Origin: Treponema sp.
GTDB lineage: Bacteria > Spirochaetota > Spirochaetia > Treponematales > Treponemataceae
NCBI RefSeq assembly: GCF_024696245.1
Contig: NZ_JAILGZ010000042.1
Location: forward strand, 1-37,421
Length of the DNA stretch: 37,421 nucleotides
Direction of reading: 5' to 3'
In this document: positions 1,045-14,275 of the stretch, one piece after another
Layout of the letters: every line of letters starts with the position of its first letter
Position numbering within the stretch: position 1 is the first letter of the stretch
Notes under the pieces: generated by a model
Seen by the model: only the letters and a program-made list of their open reading frames with translations
The model's database searches: none
What the model was told of the DNA's origin: nothing
Made by a program: the position numbers and the translations under genes

Positions 1045-2109
1045 TTATACAATCATTTCGTCATCACCACCACGGGCAATAACAACTTCACCACTGTCTT
1101 CAAGACGACGGATTACACTTACAATCTTCTGCTGGCTTTCTTCAACGTCCTTCAAGCGTACAGGTCCCATGAATTCCATATCTTCTTTAAGCATACTTGC
1201 GGCACGCTTGGACATGTTACGGAAGATTTTATCCTGAACTTCCGTATCAACAGACTTAAGGGCCTTGGCAAGTTCCTGCTGGTCAACTTCACGAAGAACT
1301 TTCTGAATGGCACGGTCGTCAAGCATAACGATATCTTCGAATACGAACATGCGTTTCTTGATTTCTTCTGCAAGTTCTGGATCGTCTTCTTCAAGGGTTT
1401 CAATGATGGCCTTTTCAGAAGAACGGTCAACAAGGTTAAGGATTTCAACGATGGAGTCAACACCACCGGCTGCAGTATAATCTTCGCTGGACAAGGTAGA
1501 CAGCTTTTTCTCAAGAACGCGTTCTACTTCACGAAGAACGTCTGGAGATGTACGGTCCATTGTTGCAAGACGTTTGGAAACTTCAGGCTGAATTTCTGCC
1601 GGAAGGTTCTGCAAAATAGTAGCTGCTTTCTGAGGGTCCAGATAAGCCAGAATAAGGGCTATGGTCTGAGGGTACTCCTGCTGAACAAAGTTAAGGAGGT
1701 GTGCCGGGTCAGTACGTCTGATAAAGTCAAAAGGACGAACCTGAAGACTTGATGTAAGACGGTTAATAATATCAATGGCTTTCTGGGAACCAAGGGATTT
1801 TTCAAGGAGTTCGCGGGCAAAATCAATACCACCGGTAGTGATAAAGTTCTGAGCCTGCATAAGTTCCTGGAATTCTTCAAGAACCTGATCCTTAAAATCT
1901 GCATCAATTGTATCAAGACGGGCAATTTCAAAAGTAATCTGTTCAACTTCATCATCACGAAGGTGTTTCATTACTTCTGCAGAAACTTCACTTCCAAGAG
2001 CAACAAGGAATATGGCAGCCTTCTGACGGCCGGTCAAGCTTTTATAGTCTTTTATCCCGCCCTTCTTCTTACTGGAAGCTGCAGGTTTAATCGATTTATC
2101 ATCAGCCAT
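1045..2109 (-). CDS. fliG: Flagellar motor switch protein FliG
   Basis: 354 residues, close to the usual 330-350. FliG forms the rotor ring on the cytoplasmic face of the MS-ring and takes torque from the stator. Visible features are the N-terminal TGRQKAAIFLVALGSEVSAEVMKHL-type FliF-binding segment, a middle domain with EYPQTIALIL (the EHPQ motif as EYPQ), repeated armadillo-like helices, and the C-terminal motor domain with FEDIVMLDDRAIQKVLREVD, which holds the conserved charged residues facing the stator. The ATG follows GGAGG inside the fliF end, with a 3 nt gap from the fliF stop, so translation is probably coupled. Spirochaetes often carry two FliG paralogues; the basal-body-operon position suggests the main motor copy. 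Confidence 0.96.
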   Translation of the reverse strand: MADDKSIKPAASSKKKGGIKDYKSLTGRQKAAIFLVALGSEVSAEVMKHLRDDEVEQITFEIARLDTIDADFKDQVLEEFQELMQAQNFITTGGIDFARELLEKSLGSQKAIDIINRLTSSLQVRPFDFIRRTDPAHLLNFVQQEYPQTIALILAYLDPQKAATILQNLPAEIQPEVSKRLATMDRTSPDVLREVERVLEKKLSTLSSEDYTAAGGVDSIVEILNLVDRSSEKAIIETLEEDDPELAEEIKKRMFVFEDIVMLDDRAIQKVLREVDQQELAKALKSVDTEVQDKIFRNMSKRAASMLKEDMEFMGPVRLKDVEESQQKIVSVIRRLEDSGEVVIARGGDDEMIV

Positions 2110-2112
2110 TGA

Positions 2113-3816
2113 TTATTCCTCCATAAGCCATGTACGGATAAGCATTGCAACATCTTCAGGATGCTCTTTTGCCATAGCAACTGCATTTTCCTGAAGTTCG
2201 GCACGTTTGCGTTCTTCGACAGACATGGTAACTTCCATACCCTGTTCCTTTGCGTCCCAAAGTGCCTTCTCTCTTTCTTCCTGCTGGCGTCTTCTTTCTT
2301 CTTCTTCACGGAGACGGCGGCGGCGTTCAATTTCTCTGGTAATAATCCTGAAGAGAATAAATGCTACAAGAACAACTGTTACACCAACAAGGATAAGAAC
2401 GATTGTCTTATTGCGCTGCTTGCGGGCACGTTCTGCTGCATCAGCCTTTTCAAATTCTTCAGAATGGTCAACACCGATATTTGTTACCGTTACAATGTCA
2501 CCTTTTTTGGCATCATATCCTATAGCACCCTGAACAAGTCTTGTGATTTCCTTAAGTTCATCTTCTTCTATAGGAGTGTATTCACGTTTAATGGCACCGT
2601 CTTCTATTACAAGTTCACCATCTTTATCACGGATTTCCTTCCAGATACCGTCAATGTTTACAGAAACAGTGCGGCGCTGAATCATAGGACTTTCTTTAGC
2701 GTTTATATTTTTTTCGTTAAGTACGTAATTTGTCTGATGACTTTCTTTCTGCTGCTGACCAATAAGATTGCTGGCATCTTCATAAACTGCAGGATTCTGA
2801 CCTTCTACACCGGAAGGACCTTCAGGGTTAAGCCCCGTACCTGTAAAGGATTCAGTTACGGAAATCTCAGAAATAGCAACCTTTTCCCTTACGTCAGAGT
2901 CATCGTATGGAGTATCCTGGTTGTCTTCCTTAAGGGTAACACCACCATATTCCTTTGCAGTATAGGACTTTTCTGACATGTCCATTTCTATCTTCATGTT
3001 TACATAATCAACACGCTTGTTAAAGATAGGCTTAATCTGCTGAAGAATACGGCTGCGGTATTCATTTTCAAGCCCCTGAATAAGGCGCTGCTGCTTGTCT
3101 ATGTTTGAAATACGGTCAGACTCTTCCATTCCCTCAAAGTTGTTGATTTCTTTATTGGTAGAACCGTCAACAATGGAAATATTTTCTGCAAGAAGACCTT
3201 CAACACTTTTTTCTATAAGACGCTCAATACCCTTGACTGAAGTCTTGTTGGAAAGGGCATCACTATAACCTTCTGCATAAAGTACGACACTGGCTGTTAC
3301 AGGCTTCTGGTTATCACTAAAATAGGTGTCATCAGGAAGGGTAAGGCTTACGCTGGCATCACGGATACCGCTTAAGCTCTTAAGGTGCTGTTCAACTGCC
3401 AGCTCACGGGAATGCTGCCACTTAACCTTGTCATCAAAATCATTGCGGGACCAGCTTGTTTCGTTAAAGAGGTCATAAGGGTTCATTCCCTTAGGTTCAA
3501 GATTTTCTGCAATGAGGATGCTGCGGTACTGGGCTGCAACTTTTTCGTTATCTACGGAAATATAATTGTCAGAAGATACGTAAGCCTGAACATTGTCCTG
3601 AGAAAGACGCATGAGAATCTTATTACGTTCAGTCTCACTATTTACAGGTGCATTAAAAAGTCTTGTAGTTGTAGGACGTGAAGAACCAACAAAAAGCCAT
3701 ACCACTGCTGCAAGAACAGCAAGGACGATTCCTATTGCAATTCCTTTTTGAACTTTTGTCCACTTAGACCATTTATCACTTAAAGACGCTATAAACTGCT
3801 TGAAGCGTTCGTTCAT
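2113..3816 (-). CDS. fliF: Flagellar MS-ring protein FliF
   Basis: 567 residues, the usual family size. FliF builds the inner-membrane MS-ring on which the rotor and export gate assemble. An N-terminal transmembrane helix (about 24-44) is followed by the periplasmic ring-building domains, including the SRPTTTRLFN segment, then a second helix (about 472-492, KTIVLILVGVTVVLVAFILF) and a strongly charged cytoplasmic tail ending RTWLMEE that binds FliG. Two adjacent ATGs exist, at 3819 and 3816. The GGAGG at 3822-3826 is only 2 nt from the first and 5 nt from the second, so I chose the second. Unlike the closely packed genes downstream, fliF is separated from fliE by about 200 nt holding a terminator and a promoter candidate. 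Confidence 0.95.
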   Translation of the reverse strand: MNERFKQFIASLSDKWSKWTKVQKGIAIGIVLAVLAAVVWLFVGSSRPTTTRLFNAPVNSETERNKILMRLSQDNVQAYVSSDNYISVDNEKVAAQYRSILIAENLEPKGMNPYDLFNETSWSRNDFDDKVKWQHSRELAVEQHLKSLSGIRDASVSLTLPDDTYFSDNQKPVTASVVLYAEGYSDALSNKTSVKGIERLIEKSVEGLLAENISIVDGSTNKEINNFEGMEESDRISNIDKQQRLIQGLENEYRSRILQQIKPIFNKRVDYVNMKIEMDMSEKSYTAKEYGGVTLKEDNQDTPYDDSDVREKVAISEISVTESFTGTGLNPEGPSGVEGQNPAVYEDASNLIGQQQKESHQTNYVLNEKNINAKESPMIQRRTVSVNIDGIWKEIRDKDGELVIEDGAIKREYTPIEEDELKEITRLVQGAIGYDAKKGDIVTVTNIGVDHSEEFEKADAAERARKQRNKTIVLILVGVTVVLVAFILFRIITREIERRRRLREEEERRRQQEEREKALWDAKEQGMEVTMSVEERKRAELQENAVAMAKEHPEDVAMLIRTWLMEE

Positions 3817-5512: not shown

Positions 5513-6118
5513 ATGGCTAACGAAGAAAAGAAAGAGCAGGAAGAAGTTAAAGAAGAAACACAGACTTCTCAGGCTCAGGATGAACAGCAGGAAGCTACAC
5601 AGACTGAAGAAGCAGCAGAACAGAAGGAAGAAGTTCCTGAAGACGAGCTTACAGTCCTTAAAAACAAGGTTGACCAGCTGGAAAAAGAGAATGCAGACCT
5701 TAAGGATCAGGTTTTACGCCGTGCAGCAGATTTTGAAAACTACCGCAAGCGCATGATTCAGGAAAAACAGGATGCATTTGACTTTGCAAACACCAACCTT
5801 CTCAAGGACCTTCTGGACAGCCTTGACAACTTTGACCGTACGGTAGAAGCAGCAGCAACAGCTACAGATCCAAAATCCATAGCTGATGGTGTTTCAATGA
5901 TAAGCAAAAGCATGGTAAGCATGCTTGAAAACAAGTACAACCTTGTTTCTTACGGCGCTGTAGGAGATGCCTTTGACCCTAACATTCATGAGGCAATCGG
6001 CATGCAGGAAGGCGACGTAGACGAAGAAAAGCTTGCAGCAGTTTACCTTAAGGGTTACAAGCTTAAGGACAGGGTTATCCGCCATGCAAAAGTCATGGTA
6101 ACTAAACCAAAGGCATAA
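5513..6118 (+). CDS. grpE: Nucleotide exchange factor GrpE
   Basis: 201 residues (family 180-220). GrpE releases ADP from DnaK and resets the Hsp70 cycle. A very acidic, Gln-rich N-terminal tail (1-45) leads into the long dimerising coiled coil (about 45-100), then the signature RRAADFENYRKRMIQEKQDA and the C-terminal beta domain with GDAFDPNIHEAIG. All hallmark segments are present. Starts at ATG 5513, with AAAGGA 11 nt upstream, a rather long spacing. It is first in grpE-dnaK-dnaJ; dnaK follows after 59 nt containing a small hairpin. There is no hrcA upstream, in contrast to many heat-shock operons. Confidence 0.96.
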   Translation: MANEEKKEQEEVKEETQTSQAQDEQQEATQTEEAAEQKEEVPEDELTVLKNKVDQLEKENADLKDQVLRRAADFENYRKRMIQEKQDAFDFANTNLLKDLLDSLDNFDRTVEAAATATDPKSIADGVSMISKSMVSMLENKYNLVSYGAVGDAFDPNIHEAIGMQEGDVDEEKLAAVYLKGYKLKDRVIRHAKVMVTKPKA

Positions 6119-6123
6119 GATAA

Positions 6124-6144
6124 TGTCCGCATTTTCAACGGACA
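6124..6144 (+). other. Intercistronic hairpin between grpE and dnaK
   Basis: TGTCCG (6124-6129) and CGGACA (6139-6144) form a perfect 6-bp stem with a 9-nt loop. There is no T run after it, so it is not a strong terminator. It could be an RNA processing or stability element that sets the grpE:dnaK ratio; that role is inferred. Confidence 0.5.
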
Positions 6145-6177
6145 CTTTAACAATAAAAGCAATAGGAGATAAATAAA

Positions 6178-8151
6178 ATGGGAAAAATTATCGGTATCGA
6201 CTTAGGAACCACAAACTCTTGTGTAGCCGTAATGGAAAACGGTGAACCTGTAGTAATTCAGAACTCAGAAGGTGGACGCACAACTCCATCTATCGTTGGT
6301 TTTACATCAAAAGGAGACAGAATTACAGGTCTTCCTGCTAAAAACCAGATGGTTACTAACCCAAAGAACACTGTTTACTCAGTAAAACGTCTTATCGGAC
6401 ACAGATTTAACGAACTTGAAGGAGAAGCAACAAAGCTTCCTTATGCAATTAAAGATCATGGTGCAGATGTTCGTGTTTGCGTTCAGGAAAACGGAGCAGA
6501 AAAGGAATACTCTCCACAGGAAATCAGTGCCTTTATCCTTCAGAAGATGAAGAAAACTGCAGAAGACTACCTTGGAGAAACTGTAACAGAAGCTGTTATT
6601 ACAGTACCAGCTTACTTTAACGATGCTCAGCGTCAGGCAACAAAAGATGCAGGTAAAATTGCAGGTCTTGATGTAAAGCGCATCATTAACGAACCAACAG
6701 CAGCTTCCCTTGCTTTTGGTTTTAACAAAGATCAGAAATCAGAAAAAACAATCGCCGTATACGACCTTGGTGGTGGTACATTCGATATTTCCATCCTTGA
6801 ACTTGGAGACGGTGTATTTGAAGTTAAATCAACAAACGGTAACACTCACCTTGGTGGAGACGACTGGGACCGCCGAATCGTAAACTGGCTTATTGACCAG
6901 TTTAAGGCAGATACAGGAATCGACCTTTCAGGTGACTCAATGGCTATGCAGCGTCTTCGTGAAGCAGCTGAAAATGCAAAAATCAGCCTTTCTAACCAGA
7001 CAACTGCAGAAATCAACCTTCCGTTCATTACAGCAGACTCAACTGGTCCAAAACACCTTCAGAAGTCTATTACACGTGCTCAGTTTGAACAGATGACTGA
7101 CGATCTTTTTGAAGCAACCCGCGAACCTTGTCAGAAGGCTATGCGCGATGCAGAAATCACAGCTGACAAAATCGACGAAGTTCTTCTCGTTGGTGGTTCA
7201 AGCCGTATGCCTAAAGTTCAGGAAATCGTAAAGTCTATCTTCGGAAAGGAAGGAAGCCGTGCAGTTAACCCTGATGAAGCAGTTGCTATTGGAGCTGCCG
7301 TACAGGGTGGTGTTCTTGCAGGAGACGTTAAGGACGTTCTTCTTCTTGACGTAACTCCACTTTCTCTTGGTATTGAAACAATGGGCGGTGTATTTACCCG
7401 TCTTATTAACCGCAATACTACAATTCCTACAAAAAAGAGCCAGGTATTCTCTACAGCTGCTGATAACCAGACTGCAGTAAGCATCCACGTACTCCAGGGT
7501 GAACGTGAAATGGCAGCTCAGAACCGTACACTTGGTAACTTTGACCTTACAGACATTCCACCAGCACCACGTGGAGTTCCACAGATCGAAGTAACATTCG
7601 ATATTGATGCTAACGGTATCGTTCATGTTTCTGCAAAGGACATGGGTACAGGAAAAGAACAGCATATTCAGATTCAGTCTTCTTCCGGCCTTAGCGAAGA
7701 CGAAATCAACCGCATGGTTAAAGATGCAGAAGCTAATGCTGATGCAGACAAAAAGAAGCGTGAATCAATTGATGCCCGCAACGAAGCTGATTCTCTTGTT
7801 TACCAGACAGAAAAGACCCTTAAGGATCTTGGAGACAAGGTAAATGGAGATGACAAGGCTAAGGTAGAAGCTGCAGTAAACGAACTTAAGGAAGCCCTTA
7901 AGGGAGAAGACATTGAAGCTATCAAAGCTAAGTCAGAAGCCCTTAAACAGGCATCTTACAAAATTGCAGAAGAACTTTACAAACAGCAGGCTGCTAACGG
8001 TGGTGCCCAGGGTGCCGGTCCGGGAGCAGGAGCAGGTGCTGGTCCAAACCCAGGTGCAGGTGCCGGAGCTGGTTCAGCTGGAGCAGGTGCTTCAGGATTC
8101 AACAAGGCTGACGCTGATGATGTTGAATACGAAGTTAAGGATGAAAAATAA
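6178..8151 (+). CDS. dnaK: Molecular chaperone DnaK (Hsp70)
   Basis: 657 residues, slightly longer than the usual 610-640. This ATP-driven chaperone works with DnaJ and GrpE. The N-terminal ATPase domain opens with [19 protein letters not shown], with [32 protein letters not shown] and the [14 protein letters not shown] phosphate-binding loop; the hydrophobic linker [16 protein letters not shown] leads to the substrate-binding domain and helical lid. The C-terminal tail (about 608-640) is an unusually long Gly/Ala/Pro stretch, then a short acidic end [10 protein letters not shown] good AGGAG site precedes the ATG. A terminator follows, before dnaJ. Confidence 0.99.
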
Positions 8152-8175
8152 TTCCTTAGAGTCATAAAGCTCATG

Positions 8176-8209
8176 CAGCCTCCGTCAATTGCGGCGGGGG
8201 CTGTTTTTT
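8176..8209 (+). terminator. Rho-independent terminator between dnaK and dnaJ
   Basis: CAGCC at 8176-8180 pairs with GGCTG at 8199-8203, with an inner CCG/CGG pairing, followed by TTTTTT (8204-8209). It should lower dnaJ transcription relative to dnaK. No clear promoter is visible in the 41 nt left before dnaJ. Confidence 0.82.
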
Positions 8210-8250
8210 GATACATTTAACTGATTAAAACTAATTTTTAGGGAAATATC

Positions 8251-9384
8251 ATGGCCGCTAAACGTGATTATTACGAAGTTCTTGGAATCGATAAGAGTGC
8301 AGACAAAGAAACAATCAAGAAAGCATACCGCAAGCTTGCTGTAAAATATCATCCTGACAGAAATCCGGGTGATAAAACTGCAGAAGAAAAATTCAAGGAA
8401 GCAACAGAAGCTTACGAAGTACTCTCTGATGAACAGAAACGCCCGATTTATGACCAGTATGGTTTTGCCGGACTGGACGGAATGGGTGGTGCAGGAGGCG
8501 GACAGGGATATTCCCACGCTTTCCACGATTTCAGCGACATTTTTGGTGGAGCCGGCGGATTCAGCGATATTTTTGAAAGCTTCTTCGGTGGTGGCAGTTC
8601 AAGAAGCCGCCGTAATGATAATGACGGAGCAAGCATCCGCGTAAACCTTACCCTTACATTAAAAGAAGCTGTTTACGGTTGTAAAAAAGACATACGCTTT
8701 ACCCATAAAGAAGCCTGTCCTGAATGTCACGGTACTGGTGGAGCTGCAGGTTCAAGCAGAAAAACCTGTCCTACCTGTCGCGGTGCAGGTCAGATAAGAA
8801 GAAACAGCGGATTCTTTTCCGTTCAGCAGACCTGTCCTACCTGTGGAGGCAAGGGCACTGTTATAGACAAGCCATGTTCAAGCTGCCGTGGAAGTGGTGT
8901 TTACAATAAAACCACTACCCTTTCCGTTTCCATTCCAGAAGGAACTGATGACGGAAGCCGCAAGATGATTCACGGTATGGGAGATGCAGGTACAAACGGA
9001 GGATCAGCAGGAGACCTTATCATAATGGTACAGGTTCAGCCTGACCGCTACTTTGAACGCAGCGAATATGACCTTTACTGTGCAGTACCTGTTACGGTAG
9101 CCCAGGCTATTCTTGGAACAGACCTTACCATAAAGGGACTTGATGAGCGTTCAATAACAATAAAAGTACCTTCCGGAACTACAAACGGAAAAATGCTCCG
9201 TATAAGAAACGAAGGTGTTCCTTACGGTTCTTCCGGTAAAAAAGGCGACCTTTACGTTAAGCTTATCGTTGAACTTCCAACAAAACTTTCTTCTGAACAG
9301 AAAGCTGCCATGGAAGCCTATGCCCGCTACGAAAAAGCTTCAACAGAACCTTCAAAGATTCCTCTGGATAAACTTCAGGGTTAA
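8251..9384 (+). CDS. dnaJ: Hsp40 co-chaperone DnaJ
   Basis: 377 residues, standard for a type I DnaJ. It delivers substrates to DnaK and stimulates its ATPase. The J domain (1-70) holds the HPD triad (34-36); a Gly/Phe-rich region with [10 protein letters not shown] repeats follows. Then come four zinc-binding CxxCxGxG motifs ([32 protein letters not shown]) around residues 155-215 and the C-terminal substrate-binding beta domains. All zinc ligands are intact. It is 99 nt after dnaK, beyond a terminator, so it is probably expressed by partial read-through. Confidence 0.98.
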
Positions 9385-9391
9385 AAAACAG

Positions 9392-9421
9392 CCGGTCTTA
9401 AAGCCATATTTTTAAGGCCGG
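9392..9421 (+). terminator. Hairpin terminator after dnaJ
   Basis: CCGGTCTTAAA (from 9392) pairs with TTTAAGGCCGG (to 9421), an 11-bp stem with one G-U pair. The following tract (ACTATTTTA) is weak in T, so termination may be partial. Confidence 0.65.
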
Positions 9422-9504: not shown

Positions 9505-10908
9505 ATGTATCAGGCAAAACGACGAATTTCAGTTTTTATTGCTAACGTCATATTAATTGCGTTCTTTACTTTTACAGCAGTCAGCGTTATTCCGGCTTTA
9601 AGGAGAAACTCACCTAAAAATTCACCACTGGCAACACTTATTACAGTAGGAGTCGCTTTTGGAGTTGTAACCGTAGCTTCCCGCTTAACTGCCGTTTACC
9701 TTACAAAAAAGGCTGCAAAAAGCTCTCTTGAAGAAGGTGAGACTGAAATTCTCTCTGACTTTATAGAAAAACTCCGTTTCTGCTATTCCCTTGATGAATT
9801 TAACGAAATCGTTTCCCAGGTACTTGAAGTACAGGGTGACTGTTCCGTTCTTTATATTGACCGTGAACAGAACTATATCCTTTACAACAGTCCGGACAAG
9901 CTTACCTGTTCCAGCGAAATTACCACAAAACTTGAACGTAACTACTCTGTAGACTGGAAAGACGGTATTTTCTTCCTTGGACCTAACTTTGGTGTAGTAT
10001 CAGGTCCTAAAAAGGCAAGAGGCTTCCTTCTTGTACATAATAAACAGCATCTTTACATATTCTGCCGCTATACAAAACTCTTTGACCACTTTATTTTTAA
10101 GAGTCTTTACGAAGAATACTGCCGCTTCCAGAGCCGTATTAAGACAATTTCACAGCTTTCCGAAATTTCTTCACTTTCAAAAGACTGGAATCAGCTTGCA
10201 GAGACCCAGAGATCCTTCCTTCCTCCTGCAATGCCTTACATTAAAAAACTTTCACTTGCAGCCTACTATAAACCACTGGTAAACGTTTCCGGTGACTACT
10301 ATACAGTTCTTCCTATTTCTGAAACAAAAACCCTGCTCATGCTTGGTGACGTATCAGGTAAAGGTCTTGCCGCAGCCCTGGTCATGGGTCTGGTAATGAA
10401 TACTGTAAAGAACATTGCCAACAAGGAAAACCTCAGTGGTGTAATTCAGTCTGTAGATAAGGCTATTAAGGGAATGAAACTTCAGGATAAATATACTGTA
10501 GTTTTCATCGGAATCGTTGATACGGAAAAAATGTCTATCCGCTATGTAAACGCTTCCATGTCTGACCCGGTAGTTATTTCCAAATCACCTACAGGCTACA
10601 AGCTTAAGCCTCTTACTTCCAACTGTTCCCTTGTCGGAATTATTGATCTTCCGGACATTGAACCAACTGAACTTAAGCTTTTCCGTGGTGACGTAATCCT
10701 TATGGCATCGGACGGTGTTTCTGAAGTAATGGATAAAGACGGTGTAGAACTTGGTACTACCCAGCTCTATCAGGATACAATCAAGGCCAGTGCTGCCAAA
10801 AAACCTGATGATTTTATCAAGGATGTTGTAAACCTTATACACAGCTACAACGGTGGAGCAAAACTTAGGGACGACCTTACTATGATGGTTGCCAAGGTGG
10901 AGAGATAA
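9505..10908 (+). CDS. Membrane SpoIIE-type PP2C serine phosphatase, catalytic residues intact
   Basis: 467 residues. Two transmembrane helices (about 9-29 and 41-62) precede a GAF-like sensory region (about 80-215), a short helical linker and a SpoIIE/RsbU-type PP2C phosphatase domain (about 235-467). Such enzymes dephosphorylate STAS-domain anti-anti-sigma factors. The metal-binding acids are present: SGDYYT (D264), GDVSGKG (D282), ASDGVSE and RDDLTMMV. The ATG at 9505 has GAGG 6 nt upstream; the upstream TTG at 9493 overlaps that site and is less likely. It is first in an operon with the second PP2C protein (1-nt gap), STAS and VanY genes. The likely substrate is the STAS protein at 13093, by inference. 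The sensed signal is unknown. Confidence 0.87.
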   Translation: MYQAKRRISVFIANVILIAFFTFTAVSVIPALRRNSPKNSPLATLITVGVAFGVVTVASRLTAVYLTKKAAKSSLEEGETEILSDFIEKLRFCYSLDEFNEIVSQVLEVQGDCSVLYIDREQNYILYNSPDKLTCSSEITTKLERNYSVDWKDGIFFLGPNFGVVSGPKKARGFLLVHNKQHLYIFCRYTKLFDHFIFKSLYEEYCRFQSRIKTISQLSEISSLSKDWNQLAETQRSFLPPAMPYIKKLSLAAYYKPLVNVSGDYYTVLPISETKTLLMLGDVSGKGLAAALVMGLVMNTVKNIANKENLSGVIQSVDKAIKGMKLQDKYTVVFIGIVDTEKMSIRYVNASMSDPVVISKSPTGYKLKPLTSNCSLVGIIDLPDIEPTELKLFRGDVILMASDGVSEVMDKDGVELGTTQLYQDTIKASAAKKPDDFIKDVVNLIHSYNGGAKLRDDLTMMVAKVER

Positions 10909-10909
10909 T

Positions 10910-13093
10910 ATGGTTTTTCTTTTACTGAACTTAATTGCATTTGCATTTACAATCAGGCTTGCATTCCGCACTGATAAAAAAATTGAAGTAACAAAATACA
11001 GTACTGATCTTGTAAACCTTACTCTCTTTTTAAGTATAGTTTTCCTTTCTTCAGCTGTTATGATTGCCCTCAGTCTCTGGGGTCCTTCCCAGCTTTCTCT
11101 GTTTTCCGGAAGAATCACAATTATGCTTTTTGCCTGCTACAGTGTTTCTGCAGCAATTTATATAGTAGGATTTCCTAGATCAAACAAAAAGCGTCCAAGC
11201 ATATTAATGCAGTTTTTTAAGTGGGGTCTTTTTATTCTTGCCTTCTACCTGGTTTTCCTTGCAAAAGGTTCCATTCTGGCTCTTGGCATGAACGAAAGAA
11301 AATTCATTTTCCGTTCAGGATTTATTTTCCGCGGTGCAATGAGACGTACCTTCCACTACACCTGGTTTGACCTTATTTCTAAGCTTTATATTTACGCAAT
11401 ACCATGTTTCTTTGTACTTCTTGCTGCAATTAAGGCAGAAAATACAGATTCAAGGCTTTTAAGACAGAAGCGTATCATTACCATCATTGGTATTCCTATG
11501 GCATGGCTTACCTGGTATTACATTCAGTGGGCAAGTGAATATCAGTCACTTATTATGTCCCTCTTCTCATTTACCTTCCTGCCACAGATTATTCTTTTCT
11601 CTTACGGAAGTAATCTTGAGACTCTCTGGACACCATTAAGCCTTTTAAAAGCTGCTGCCCGTGTAGGTGTAAGGTACCTTCTTCCTGCAGCTTTAGGAGG
11701 ACTTTTATTTATAGCCCTGGCTGACATTTACAGACAGAACCTGCCTCTCTTTATGATTCTTTACATTACAGGTATTTCTGTTATCACCTTCTTCTGGTAC
11801 TACCTTGACCGTCTCATTCAGTCAAAAGACTTTTTGCGTGACAACAACTATTCTTCTGAATTTGAAAAGGACATTACTTCCATTAACTACGACGATGAAC
11901 CACAGGCAATCACTGAGCATGTATTTACAACCTTCCAGAGATACCTTGATTCTTCTTCCATTACCCTTCTTACTGACAACGGTACGGAAAACGGTCTTGA
12001 AACAGTATACAGCTCAAAGGGAAACAATATTACCCTTAAGGTAGATCCTTCGGTATTTGATACACTTCTTAACATGAACCATCCTGTAGTATTCAGGGAA
12101 TGGCTTATGCAGAACTCTTCTGTAAGTAACATCCGTTCCTATGCAGTTGACCTTCTTACAAAGACAGATTCAGATGCCTTTATCATCCTTAATGAAGGAC
12201 GCCAGGTTGTCGCAGTTCTTGCTTTAGGTAAAAAACGTAACGGTAACGTTTACTCAGCATACGACTATGAAGTTCTTAACAAGTTCTATTCCAACATTTT
12301 CGTTGTCGGCTACTATGTAAAGAACATCATGAACGAAGCCCTTATTGGTACTGTAAACCGCGAAATCCGCATGTCAGACCAGATTATTACTTCCATTCAG
12401 GAAAACATGGACTTTATCAAGAATCCTAAGGCAGACGTAGGCTACCTTATGGTTCCTGCCCATAACATTGGTGGTGAATTTGTAGATATCATCCGTCTTA
12501 ACGACCAGCGTTACATCTTTATTATTGGTGCCCTTAACGGTAAGGGTATTGCAGCTTCCATGAACATGGTCATCCTTAAGTCCATTATCCGTACCTTCCT
12601 TGCAGAAACTACAGACTTTAAGCTTCTTGTAGAAAAGGTTAATACCTTTATCCGTGAATCCCTTCCAAAGGGTTCCTTCTTTGCAGGAACTTTCGGACTT
12701 ATAGACTTTACTTCTGATACCCTTTACTACATTAACTGTGGTGCCCCTGCCCTCTTTATGTATACAAAGGCCTACAACAACATCATCGAAATCCAGGGTG
12801 CCGGCCGTATCCTTGGCTTTGTTCAGGATATTGGTCCCCTTATTAAGGTAAAGAAAGTTAAGCTTTCCGAGGGAGATATGATTATGGCCTGTACAGACGG
12901 TCTTATTGAATCCCGCTCCCTTCGTGGTGATGTATACGGAAAATCAAACATTCAGTCTAACTTTATGGAAAACTCAGGTTATCCTGCTAACAAAATGGCT
13001 CAGTTTGCATACGATTCCCTGGTACACTTCAGCTCAAAAGAGCTTGATGATGATGTTACTATCCTTGTAATTAAATATCTTGGAGGCAAATAA
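10910..13093 (+). CDS. Multi-pass membrane SpoIIE-type PP2C protein, probable pseudophosphatase
   Basis: 727 residues. About nine hydrophobic helices (residues 1 to about 310) form a membrane sensor; a GAF-like region (about 340-480) and a C-terminal SpoIIE/PP2C domain (about 490-727) follow. The fold markers are clear (HNIGGEFVD, NGKGIAASMN, TDGLIES, DDDVTILV). However, the first metal-binding Asp (GGDFYD) is Glu523, and the metal-bridging Asp of GDVSGKG is Ala541 (GALNGKG). In PP2C enzymes that second residue is essential, so activity is doubtful; a regulatory or sensing role is inferred. The ATG at 10910 has GGAG 7 nt upstream. The next gene overlaps by 1 nt. Confidence 0.83.
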   Translation: MVFLLLNLIAFAFTIRLAFRTDKKIEVTKYSTDLVNLTLFLSIVFLSSAVMIALSLWGPSQLSLFSGRITIMLFACYSVSAAIYIVGFPRSNKKRPSILMQFFKWGLFILAFYLVFLAKGSILALGMNERKFIFRSGFIFRGAMRRTFHYTWFDLISKLYIYAIPCFFVLLAAIKAENTDSRLLRQKRIITIIGIPMAWLTWYYIQWASEYQSLIMSLFSFTFLPQIILFSYGSNLETLWTPLSLLKAAARVGVRYLLPAALGGLLFIALADIYRQNLPLFMILYITGISVITFFWYYLDRLIQSKDFLRDNNYSSEFEKDITSINYDDEPQAITEHVFTTFQRYLDSSSITLLTDNGTENGLETVYSSKGNNITLKVDPSVFDTLLNMNHPVVFREWLMQNSSVSNIRSYAVDLLTKTDSDAFIILNEGRQVVAVLALGKKRNGNVYSAYDYEVLNKFYSNIFVVGYYVKNIMNEALIGTVNREIRMSDQIITSIQENMDFIKNPKADVGYLMVPAHNIGGEFVDIIRLNDQRYIFIIGALNGKGIAASMNMVILKSIIRTFLAETTDFKLLVEKVNTFIRESLPKGSFFAGTFGLIDFTSDTLYYINCGAPALFMYTKAYNNIIEIQGAGRILGFVQDIGPLIKVKKVKLSEGDMIMACTDGLIESRSLRGDVYGKSNIQSNFMENSGYPANKMAQFAYDSLVHFSSKELDDDVTILVIKYLGGK

Positions 13094-13428
13094 TGGATCA
13101 GCTTGCCATTAACGAAAAAGTTGGAGCTTACTACATGCTTCTGGAACTTTCCGGAGCTGTAAATGCCTATACTATTACGGAATTGAAAACAAAAGTTTAC
13201 AGTTATATACTTGACTCCAACGTTGTACTTGATATGTCTCAGGTATACCAGCTTGATTCCACAGGTCTGGGAGTAATAATCGCTGCCCATAATGACGGCG
13301 AAGGATGCGGTACAAAGGTATTTATCCTTAACCCTTCTGCAGAAGCCCGCCACTCCCTGGAAAAAACCGGATTTCTGGACACCTTCAACGTAATTCATTC
13401 CGTTACGGAGGTTAGTGATGCATTGTAG
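13093..13428 (+). CDS. STAS-domain anti-anti-sigma factor
   Basis: 111 residues, the length of a lone STAS domain (SpoIIAA/RsbV family). Such proteins are phosphorylated on one serine by an anti-sigma kinase and reactivated by SpoIIE-type phosphatases. The site motif is VYQLDSTGLG with Ser56 as the likely phospho-acceptor. The gene overlaps the previous stop by 1 nt (TAATG) with GGAGG 6 nt upstream, so translation is coupled to the PP2C genes. No anti-sigma kinase or sigma factor is nearby, so the rest of the partner switch must be encoded elsewhere. Confidence 0.9.
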   Translation: MDQLAINEKVGAYYMLLELSGAVNAYTITELKTKVYSYILDSNVVLDMSQVYQLDSTGLGVIIAAHNDGEGCGTKVFILNPSAEARHSLEKTGFLDTFNVIHSVTEVSDAL

Positions 13429-14275
13429 CCGCGGTTTGTGTATTGCTGCATCAATTCTTGCCATCAATTTTTTTGGAGGATGTACAAAGTCTTCCGCTAA
13501 AACAGTTTCAGAAGAAAAAAAACCTTCTGAAAAAATTACTGAAGAAAAAAAAATAAACCCTGACATTGCAAAAGCCAGGGCTGTTTATGACAAAATGAGT
13601 GACCGCTTTAAGGGTGACATTCAGTTTGCAGATGATGAACAGATAGAAGACTTTCTTGCAGACTTAAATGAAATCCTTAAAGAAGAAAAGACTTTTTCAA
13701 AAGATGATGTAAGTCTTTTTTACCTTATTGATAAAAAACATAATATCGGTTCAGACTATGTTCCTGCAGAACTTATACCGGTAAAGCAGAACAATCTTTT
13801 TAACGTAAGCCGCAACGACCTTAGCTTAAGGTCAGAAGCTTATGATGCCCTCTGCAATCTGTCTAAGGCAGCCCTGGCAGACGGAATAAAACTTATGGTA
13901 AGTTCTACATACCGTTCTTACACTTACCAGACCGGTCTTTTTAACCGTTATGTTGCCCAGGATGGAGTTGAACTTGCAGAACGTTACTCTGCCCGCCCTG
14001 GTACAAGTCAGCACCAGCTTGGAGTAGCAGTTGACTTCGGTTCCATTACTGATGACTGGGGTGACACAAAAATGGGCCAGTGGGTATACAACAATGCAGC
14101 CCGCTACGGATGGTCCCTTTCTTTTCCAAAAGGATATGAAGATGTCACAGGTTATATGTGGGAATGCTGGCACTTCCGCTATGTAGGAGTTAAAGCCTGC
14201 CGCTTTCAGGAAAAATGGTTCAGGAACATTCAGCAGTATATGCTTGAATATATTGAAGAGTGGAAGCAGCAGTAA
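13418..14275 (+). CDS. VanY-type D-alanyl-D-alanine carboxypeptidase, lipoprotein
   Basis: 285 residues. A short hydrophobic signal ends at a relaxed spirochaetal lipobox (FFGG-Cys22), then a charged Lys/Glu-rich spacer (about 23-65), then a peptidase M15B/VanY domain (about 110-265). The zinc site is visible: SxHxxGxAxD as SQHQLGVAVD (His199, Asp206) and ECWHF (Glu249, His252). Such enzymes trim the terminal D-Ala from peptidoglycan stems. It is likely anchored in the periplasm. It overlaps the STAS gene by 11 nt; GGAGG lies 6 nt before ATG 13418, while the GTG at 13415 is too close. Coupling to a partner-switch module suggests cell-envelope control, by inference. Confidence 0.9.
   Translation: MHCSRGLCIAASILAINFFGGCTKSSAKTVSEEKKPSEKITEEKKINPDIAKARAVYDKMSDRFKGDIQFADDEQIEDFLADLNEILKEEKTFSKDDVSLFYLIDKKHNIGSDYVPAELIPVKQNNLFNVSRNDLSLRSEAYDALCNLSKAALADGIKLMVSSTYRSYTYQTGLFNRYVAQDGVELAERYSARPGTSQHQLGVAVDFGSITDDWGDTKMGQWVYNNAARYGWSLSFPKGYEDVTGYMWECWHFRYVGVKACRFQEKWFRNIQQYMLEYIEEWKQQ

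Follow-up and report, generated by a model that had tools for sequence, protein, structure and literature searches.

A membrane-bound SpoIIE-type protein of Treponema that has lost its metal-bridging aspartate, very probably a pseudophosphatase kept as a regulatory partner beside an active paralogue

Bacterial PPM/PP2C pseudophosphatases are already known, with E. coli RssB, in which a helical linker and switch helices are kept as a regulatory element (PMC5468089, PMC12143880), as the precedent; it has been proposed that a noncatalytic PP2C domain with a kept allosteric switch could bridge one enzyme function and another, RssB being the case cited (PMC5468089). The active phosphatases SpoIIE and RsbU of B. 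subtilis have the order sensor, linker, PP2C domain and a partner STAS protein, retain all four metal ligands, have a cognate kinase, and are switched by dimerisation via the linker and switch helices (PMC5468089, PMC12143880; also PMC11418112). In the SpoIIE structure Mn1 is held by Asp628, Asp746 and Asp795, and the ligands expected at the second Mn site are Asp628, Gly629 and Asp610 (PMC3517971). The positions of Asp610, Asp628 (bridging), Asp746 and Asp795 are referred to here as D1, D2, D3 and D4, and ligand states are given as four letters in this order. TAB1 and PHLPP2 are also PP2C pseudophosphatases with altered metal sites (PMC12002173), although these are eukaryotic proteins with other architecture and partners.

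The window (the whole stretch of 37,421 nucleotides analysed, contig NZ_JAILGZ010000042.1 of Treponema sp.) carries an operon encoding two SpoIIE-type proteins, P1 and P2, and a STAS protein, with the following features:

9392..9421, + strand: terminator-like hairpin, after dnaJ and before the P1 operon (pattern scan, consensus match only)
9505..10908, + strand: P1, membrane-anchored SpoIIE-type PP2C phosphatase (open reading frame list; Pfam SpoIIE, 4.1e-32)
10910..13093, + strand: P2, SpoIIE-type PP2C domain preceded by nine predicted membrane helices, a GAF-like domain and a linker helix (open reading frame list)
12257..12403, + strand: P2 linker helix that runs into the PP2C domain (model helices 450-498)
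12422..13090, + strand: P2 PP2C-fold domain, residues 505-727 (VIA-align structure match)
12476..12478, + strand: Glu523 codon GAA, SpoIIE Asp610 position, motif GGEFVD (alignment)
12530..12532, + strand: Ala541 codon GCC, SpoIIE Asp628 (metal-bridging) position, motif GALNGKG (alignment)
12896..12898, + strand: Asp663 codon, TDG motif, SpoIIE Asp746 position, kept (alignment)
13049..13051, + strand: Asp714 codon, first D of DDVT, SpoIIE Asp795 position, kept (alignment)
13093..13428, + strand: STAS-domain protein, anti-sigma factor antagonist type (Pfam STAS, 2.7e-16)
13415..14275, + strand: VanY-type D-Ala-D-Ala carboxypeptidase gene (Pfam, locus comparison)

A single base separates the P1 stop codon from the P2 ATG; P2 and STAS overlap, sharing bases between stop and start codon (TAATG at 13093). 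P1, P2 and STAS genes lie together on the same strand in all 226 of the 226 loci carrying all three. An apparent natural P1-P2 fusion (a 1226-aa 'open frame') resolved into two separate frames on checking. The genes grpE-dnaK-dnaJ are found just upstream of the P1 operon (window 5513-9384); among the named loci, 66 have >1300 nt before P1 and DnaJ was found in 41, so the neighbourhood of the operon may be old.

P2 starts at ATG 10910 and comprises 727 aa, the form used for residue numbers here; an in-frame TTG at 10889 would give a 734-aa product (numbering +7). The Pfam profile search matched SpoIIE (PF07228; E 1.6e-34) and no other domain above cut-off. The AlphaFold2 model (mean pLDDT 83.6) shows, in order, nine long N-terminal helices, an alpha/beta domain (about 315-445), labelled GAF-like from its order of secondary structure, a linker helix whose break at 476-489 is of low confidence, and finally the PP2C fold. 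The closest solved folds are the PP2C domains of SiaA of P. aeruginosa (Z 26.1, 241 residues, 3.0 A) and Rv1364c of M. tuberculosis (Z 25.3), followed by SpoIIE (Z 24.1) and the pseudophosphatase TAB1 (Z 17.7), and both profile and structure matches (Z 24-26 to SpoIIE-type domains) place P2 within the SpoIIE-type PP2C (PPM) fold. The entries of SiaA and Rv1364c do not describe them as pseudophosphatases, and as far as tested neither is encoded as part of a live-dead pair. In many species with EDDD P2 (e.g. L050, L079) the protein is about 820-890 aa long, with a C-terminal extension of ~90-160 residues beyond the PP2C domain.

P2 shares the PP2C fold, the sensor-linker-PP2C order and the partner STAS protein with SpoIIE and RsbU, but lacks two of their four ligands. 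In the alignment, P2 E523, A541, D663 and D714 correspond to SpoIIE D610, D628, D746 and D795, so that, with Ala541 at the Asp628 position, the bridging ligand is missing, and P2 does not have the four aspartates of an active SpoIIE-type PP2C phosphatase. A preliminary description of this DNA, made from the sequence alone, had read GGDFYD as changed to GGEFVD and GDVSGKG to GALNGKG with the later TDG and DDD motifs kept; codons and alignment with SpoIIE bear this out, with two of the four metal-ligand aspartates replaced. It had also stated that P1 keeps D264 and D282, and P1 in fact retains all four ligands (D264, D282, D403, D456, counted from ATG 9505). The AlphaFold2 model of P1 has a pLDDT of 84, and the two PP2C domains are 21% identical. 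The closest relative (87% identical) has the same residues as the window P2.

A survey of the genus and order yielded 166 P2 and 162 P1 sequences, two split frames and a few partial ones among them. A second set of 80 named loci comes from Treponema of gut and rumen and from cultured species, for example T. berlinense, T. saccharophilum and T. ruminis. The terms 'T. pallidum-like' and 'T. denticola-like' are descriptive labels, with motif and gene order among the criteria. P1 was DDDD in every readable copy (159/159 in the first set; 79/79 in the second, including the window). P2 was DDDD in 45 copies, from other families and neighbouring genera and including a 1.1 Mb T. pallidum-like genome, and EDDD in 70, while copies that have lost D2, where Ala or Ser replaces the bridging Asp, show a wide set of states (EADD, EADN, ESDD, EAAD, ESNA and others). 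T. berlinense is an example of a species whose P2 has the bridging Asp intact. The genus sample alone contains 88 scored copies, 33 of them without the bridging Asp. Among sister species, one gene in one operon thus appears with none, one, two, three or four ligands changed. Glu at D1 is, from this distribution, an old clade-wide state, and the preliminary description's use of Glu523 as a sign of death does not hold by itself: because 70 copies combine this Glu with three intact ligands, it was rejected as a sufficient inactivating change, and what sets the dead group apart is the loss of D2.

Several other degenerate copies were seen. Locus L122 (G114:C3:99000-109000) has two tandem P1-P2 units, in which both P1 are intact and both P2 degenerate (ESHD, ESSE). 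In L128 (G233) P2 is GDNE, having lost D1, D3 and D4 and kept the bridging Asp, an independent route to a broken site. The window genome also encodes a second degenerate SpoIIE-type protein (G000:C92:12327-12902; L006, ORF 1492-3486, - strand), with FEISGNG for GDVSGKG, TSS for TDG and a long membrane N-terminal half. G011 and G083 belong to the same genus and are estimated to be >90% complete; neither has P1 or P2, which suggests that the two are lost together.

On a P2 tree of 147 rows, built with the ligand columns left out, D3 was lost five times and D4 ten times. D2-lost branches account for 29.5% of the tree length and carry thirteen of these 15 losses (binomial p 7e-6; p 9e-4 for the Glu clade alone); the remaining two are both in L128, itself a degenerate copy. 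Of 263 linker and PP2C sites, the only ones evolving significantly faster in D2-lost lineages are D3 and D4 (p 0.003 and 0.0013), both named beforehand, in a scan where ~2.6 sites are expected by chance at the threshold; one further site differs in the opposite direction, and the overall rate of linker plus PP2C domain is not raised. An independent-pairs test of ligand loss had only three pairs and no power. D2 itself changed three times by parsimony with regain allowed and six times if only losses are permitted, and a reversible model fits better than irreversible loss (lnL -16.3 vs -19.7). Six independent losses are therefore not claimed, the range running from one loss plus two regains up to six losses, and the bridging Asp was perhaps regained in two lineages.

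The rest of the dead domain is under strong purifying selection. Median dN/dS of the P2 PP2C domain is 0.043 in pairs that have lost D2 (35 pairs), compared with 0.053 for the P1 PP2C domain and 0.148 for the N-terminal part of P2; the value is 0.022 between the window and its nearest relative and about 0.01-0.09 in close pairs, distant comparisons being left out as saturated. Pair identity of the P2 PP2C domain in the window clade is 71-73% where the P1 domain gives 70-90%, compared with 69-81% in EDDD lineages, and the membrane half of P2 in this clade is 30% identical. Complete P2 copies have open frames. Metal ligands lost with the fold retained, and purifying selection after the loss, are what is expected of a PPM pseudophosphatase. 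By region, dead lineages conserve the second half of the linker helix (476-505 in 734-aa numbering) more strongly than intact ones do (odds ratio 0.67, p 0.016), the flap is slightly looser (odds ratio 1.36, p 0.04) and the switch helices are equally constrained; the linker and flap tests are weak, with p values per region, uncorrected, over five regions compared.

The operon has also changed downstream of STAS. A protein of the HATPase_c_2 anti-sigma-kinase type directly follows STAS in 31 of 43 DDDD loci, as in locus L130 (G222 being the example locus in the gene-order comparison):

927-1331 of L130, - strand: HATPase kinase directly after STAS, ancestral operon (locus comparison)

Such a gene follows STAS in none of the Glu-clade loci with enough downstream sequence (0/44 D2-lost, 0/66 EDDD), and in the window the VanY-type gene occupies its place. 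Gene order thus indicates P1-P2-STAS-kinase as the ancestral operon. A profile of this kinase gave no more than weak cross-hits in the ten Glu-clade genomes of the genus that were searched, and T. pallidum-like and T. denticola-like genomes yielded no match. Relocation of the kinase was rejected, since no copy turned up at another site in the genomes checked; a HATPase match in the small T. pallidum-like genome proved to be an ordinary histidine-kinase-like frame. Loss of the kinase seems to be earlier than the changes in P2, because 12 DDDD loci also lack it. The window genome carries two other modules (C76 and C52), each with its own phosphatase, STAS and HATPase, so a kinase could act in trans; none of its seven sigma-70 region 2 proteins is linked to the P1-P2-STAS locus. 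This locus combines the phosphatase and STAS protein of RsbU/V/W-type partner switching (intact P1; phosphorylatable Ser56) with no cognate HATPase anti-sigma kinase.

In the window STAS, aligned residues D55-S56-T57-G58 keep the RsbV-type phospho-serine position (Ser56, 13258-13260), which is also kept in 36 of 45 D2-lost loci; in 36 of 66 EDDD loci Pro or Ala takes its place. Within EDDD, the motif reads DPAG, DASG or DPSG in a large group, and with the phospho-serine replaced STAS is unlikely to be a classic RsbV-type phosphoswitch there. The earlier proposal that STAS is the probable substrate stands as far as the window Ser56 goes; it is a weaker candidate given a clade without the kinase and many relatives without the phospho-serine.

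The proposal of a fold-keeping dead PP2C, in a multi-pass membrane protein encoded with an intact PP2C and STAS, is thus supported, with P2 probably catalytically dead, a reading for which sequence evolution provides good support. Very probably, P2 is a PPM pseudophosphatase that has been retained for a regulatory role with a partner. Starting from the directly observed ligand losses, conservation, gene order, kinase absence and predicted fold, we infer that catalysis is lacking, which partner P2 regulates and in which direction. The ancestor of P2 would have been one of two working phosphatases in a P1-P2-STAS-kinase partner-switching operon; the kinase would have been lost in the clade and the first ligand of P2 changed to Glu, after which many lineages would have lost the bridging Asp (to Ala or Ser), freeing the remaining ligands to change while fold, linker helix and switch helices stayed under strong selection. 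The membrane and GAF-like sensor half may now drive the PP2C domain as a noncatalytic switch element that signals to P1 via linker and switch helices, either through pairing or through competition with P1 self-pairing. A membrane-sensor pseudophosphatase that passes its state to a partner, P1 being the first candidate and STAS the second, is the reading that we moderately favour; its more specific form, a kinase-less partner switch in which P2 pairs with and gates its active sister phosphatase, is put forward as a tentative possibility.

Alternatively, the dead domain could be a substrate sink that holds STAS undephosphorylated at the membrane and frees it on a sensor trigger. The STAS gene always neighbours P2, overlapping or adjoining it, the P2 docking loops are not lost in dead lineages, and Ser56 is retained as described, but the slightly looser flap and tighter linker of dead lineages speak against it and, with the kinase lost, a pool of phospho-STAS is uncertain; we consider a sink rather unlikely. 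The linker and flap differences point weakly at the dimerisation and switch elements of SpoIIE and RsbU, a hint that leans towards tuning via linker and switch over substrate sequestration. P2 could also still be an enzyme, with a rearranged metal site or a different activity. The window protein retains Asp663, Asp714 and Glu523, as well as Asp526, which never changes on branches that have lost the bridging Asp; these four might coordinate a single metal or serve as ligands that have migrated, and pseudoenzymes with migrated residues are known in general (PMC10211241). Against this, the bridging Asp is a ligand of both SpoIIE metal sites (PMC3517971), and close relatives with the same Ala or Ser also lose Asp663 or Asp714, with no other site faster, making continued catalysis improbable.

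Decay of P2 to a gene of no present function in D2-lost lineages would fit the ongoing loss of catalytic ligands and operon kinase, and the two nearly complete genomes without P1 and P2. It is rejected as highly implausible on the selection data: low dN/dS in close pairs, open frames, and PP2C identity as high as in intact lineages. A local sequencing or assembly error at Ala541, which the preliminary description had proposed checking through orthologues, could be suspected in a draft genome of 163 contigs, but the survey of the genus and the recurrence of this Ala or Ser in dozens of genomes that were assembled independently leave it a negligible chance.

RssB has a receiver domain and a shortened C terminus and works as a ClpXP adaptor for sigma S. 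Compared with it, P2 is full length and membrane bound, has point losses of ligands only, lies beside an active phosphatase, and has a membrane and GAF-like N-terminal half with no receiver domain; the NCBIfam RssB model matches its PP2C domain partially and far below cut-off, and P2 is not a member of that family. What differs from RssB is a full-length, membrane-bound pseudophosphatase encoded right after its active paralogue, in a clade whose sister species still display the path of loss. A literature search covering few subscription papers found no report of the P1-P2 pair, and the T. pallidum locus tags that were tried gave no result either.

In Treponema, the annotations 'SpoIIE phosphatase' and 'RsbU' cannot be relied on. 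The clade shows the step from enzyme to pseudoenzyme within one gene and one operon, with only the metal site freed from selection, and the purpose of a retained dead phosphatase domain becomes directly testable; if the gating of P1 by P2 holds, these species would document, as natural snapshots, every stage on the way from an active pair to a pseudoenzyme. For gut spirochaetes related to Treponema, a dead domain maintained nearly unchanged beside a working phosphatase suggests a role as a signalling partner.
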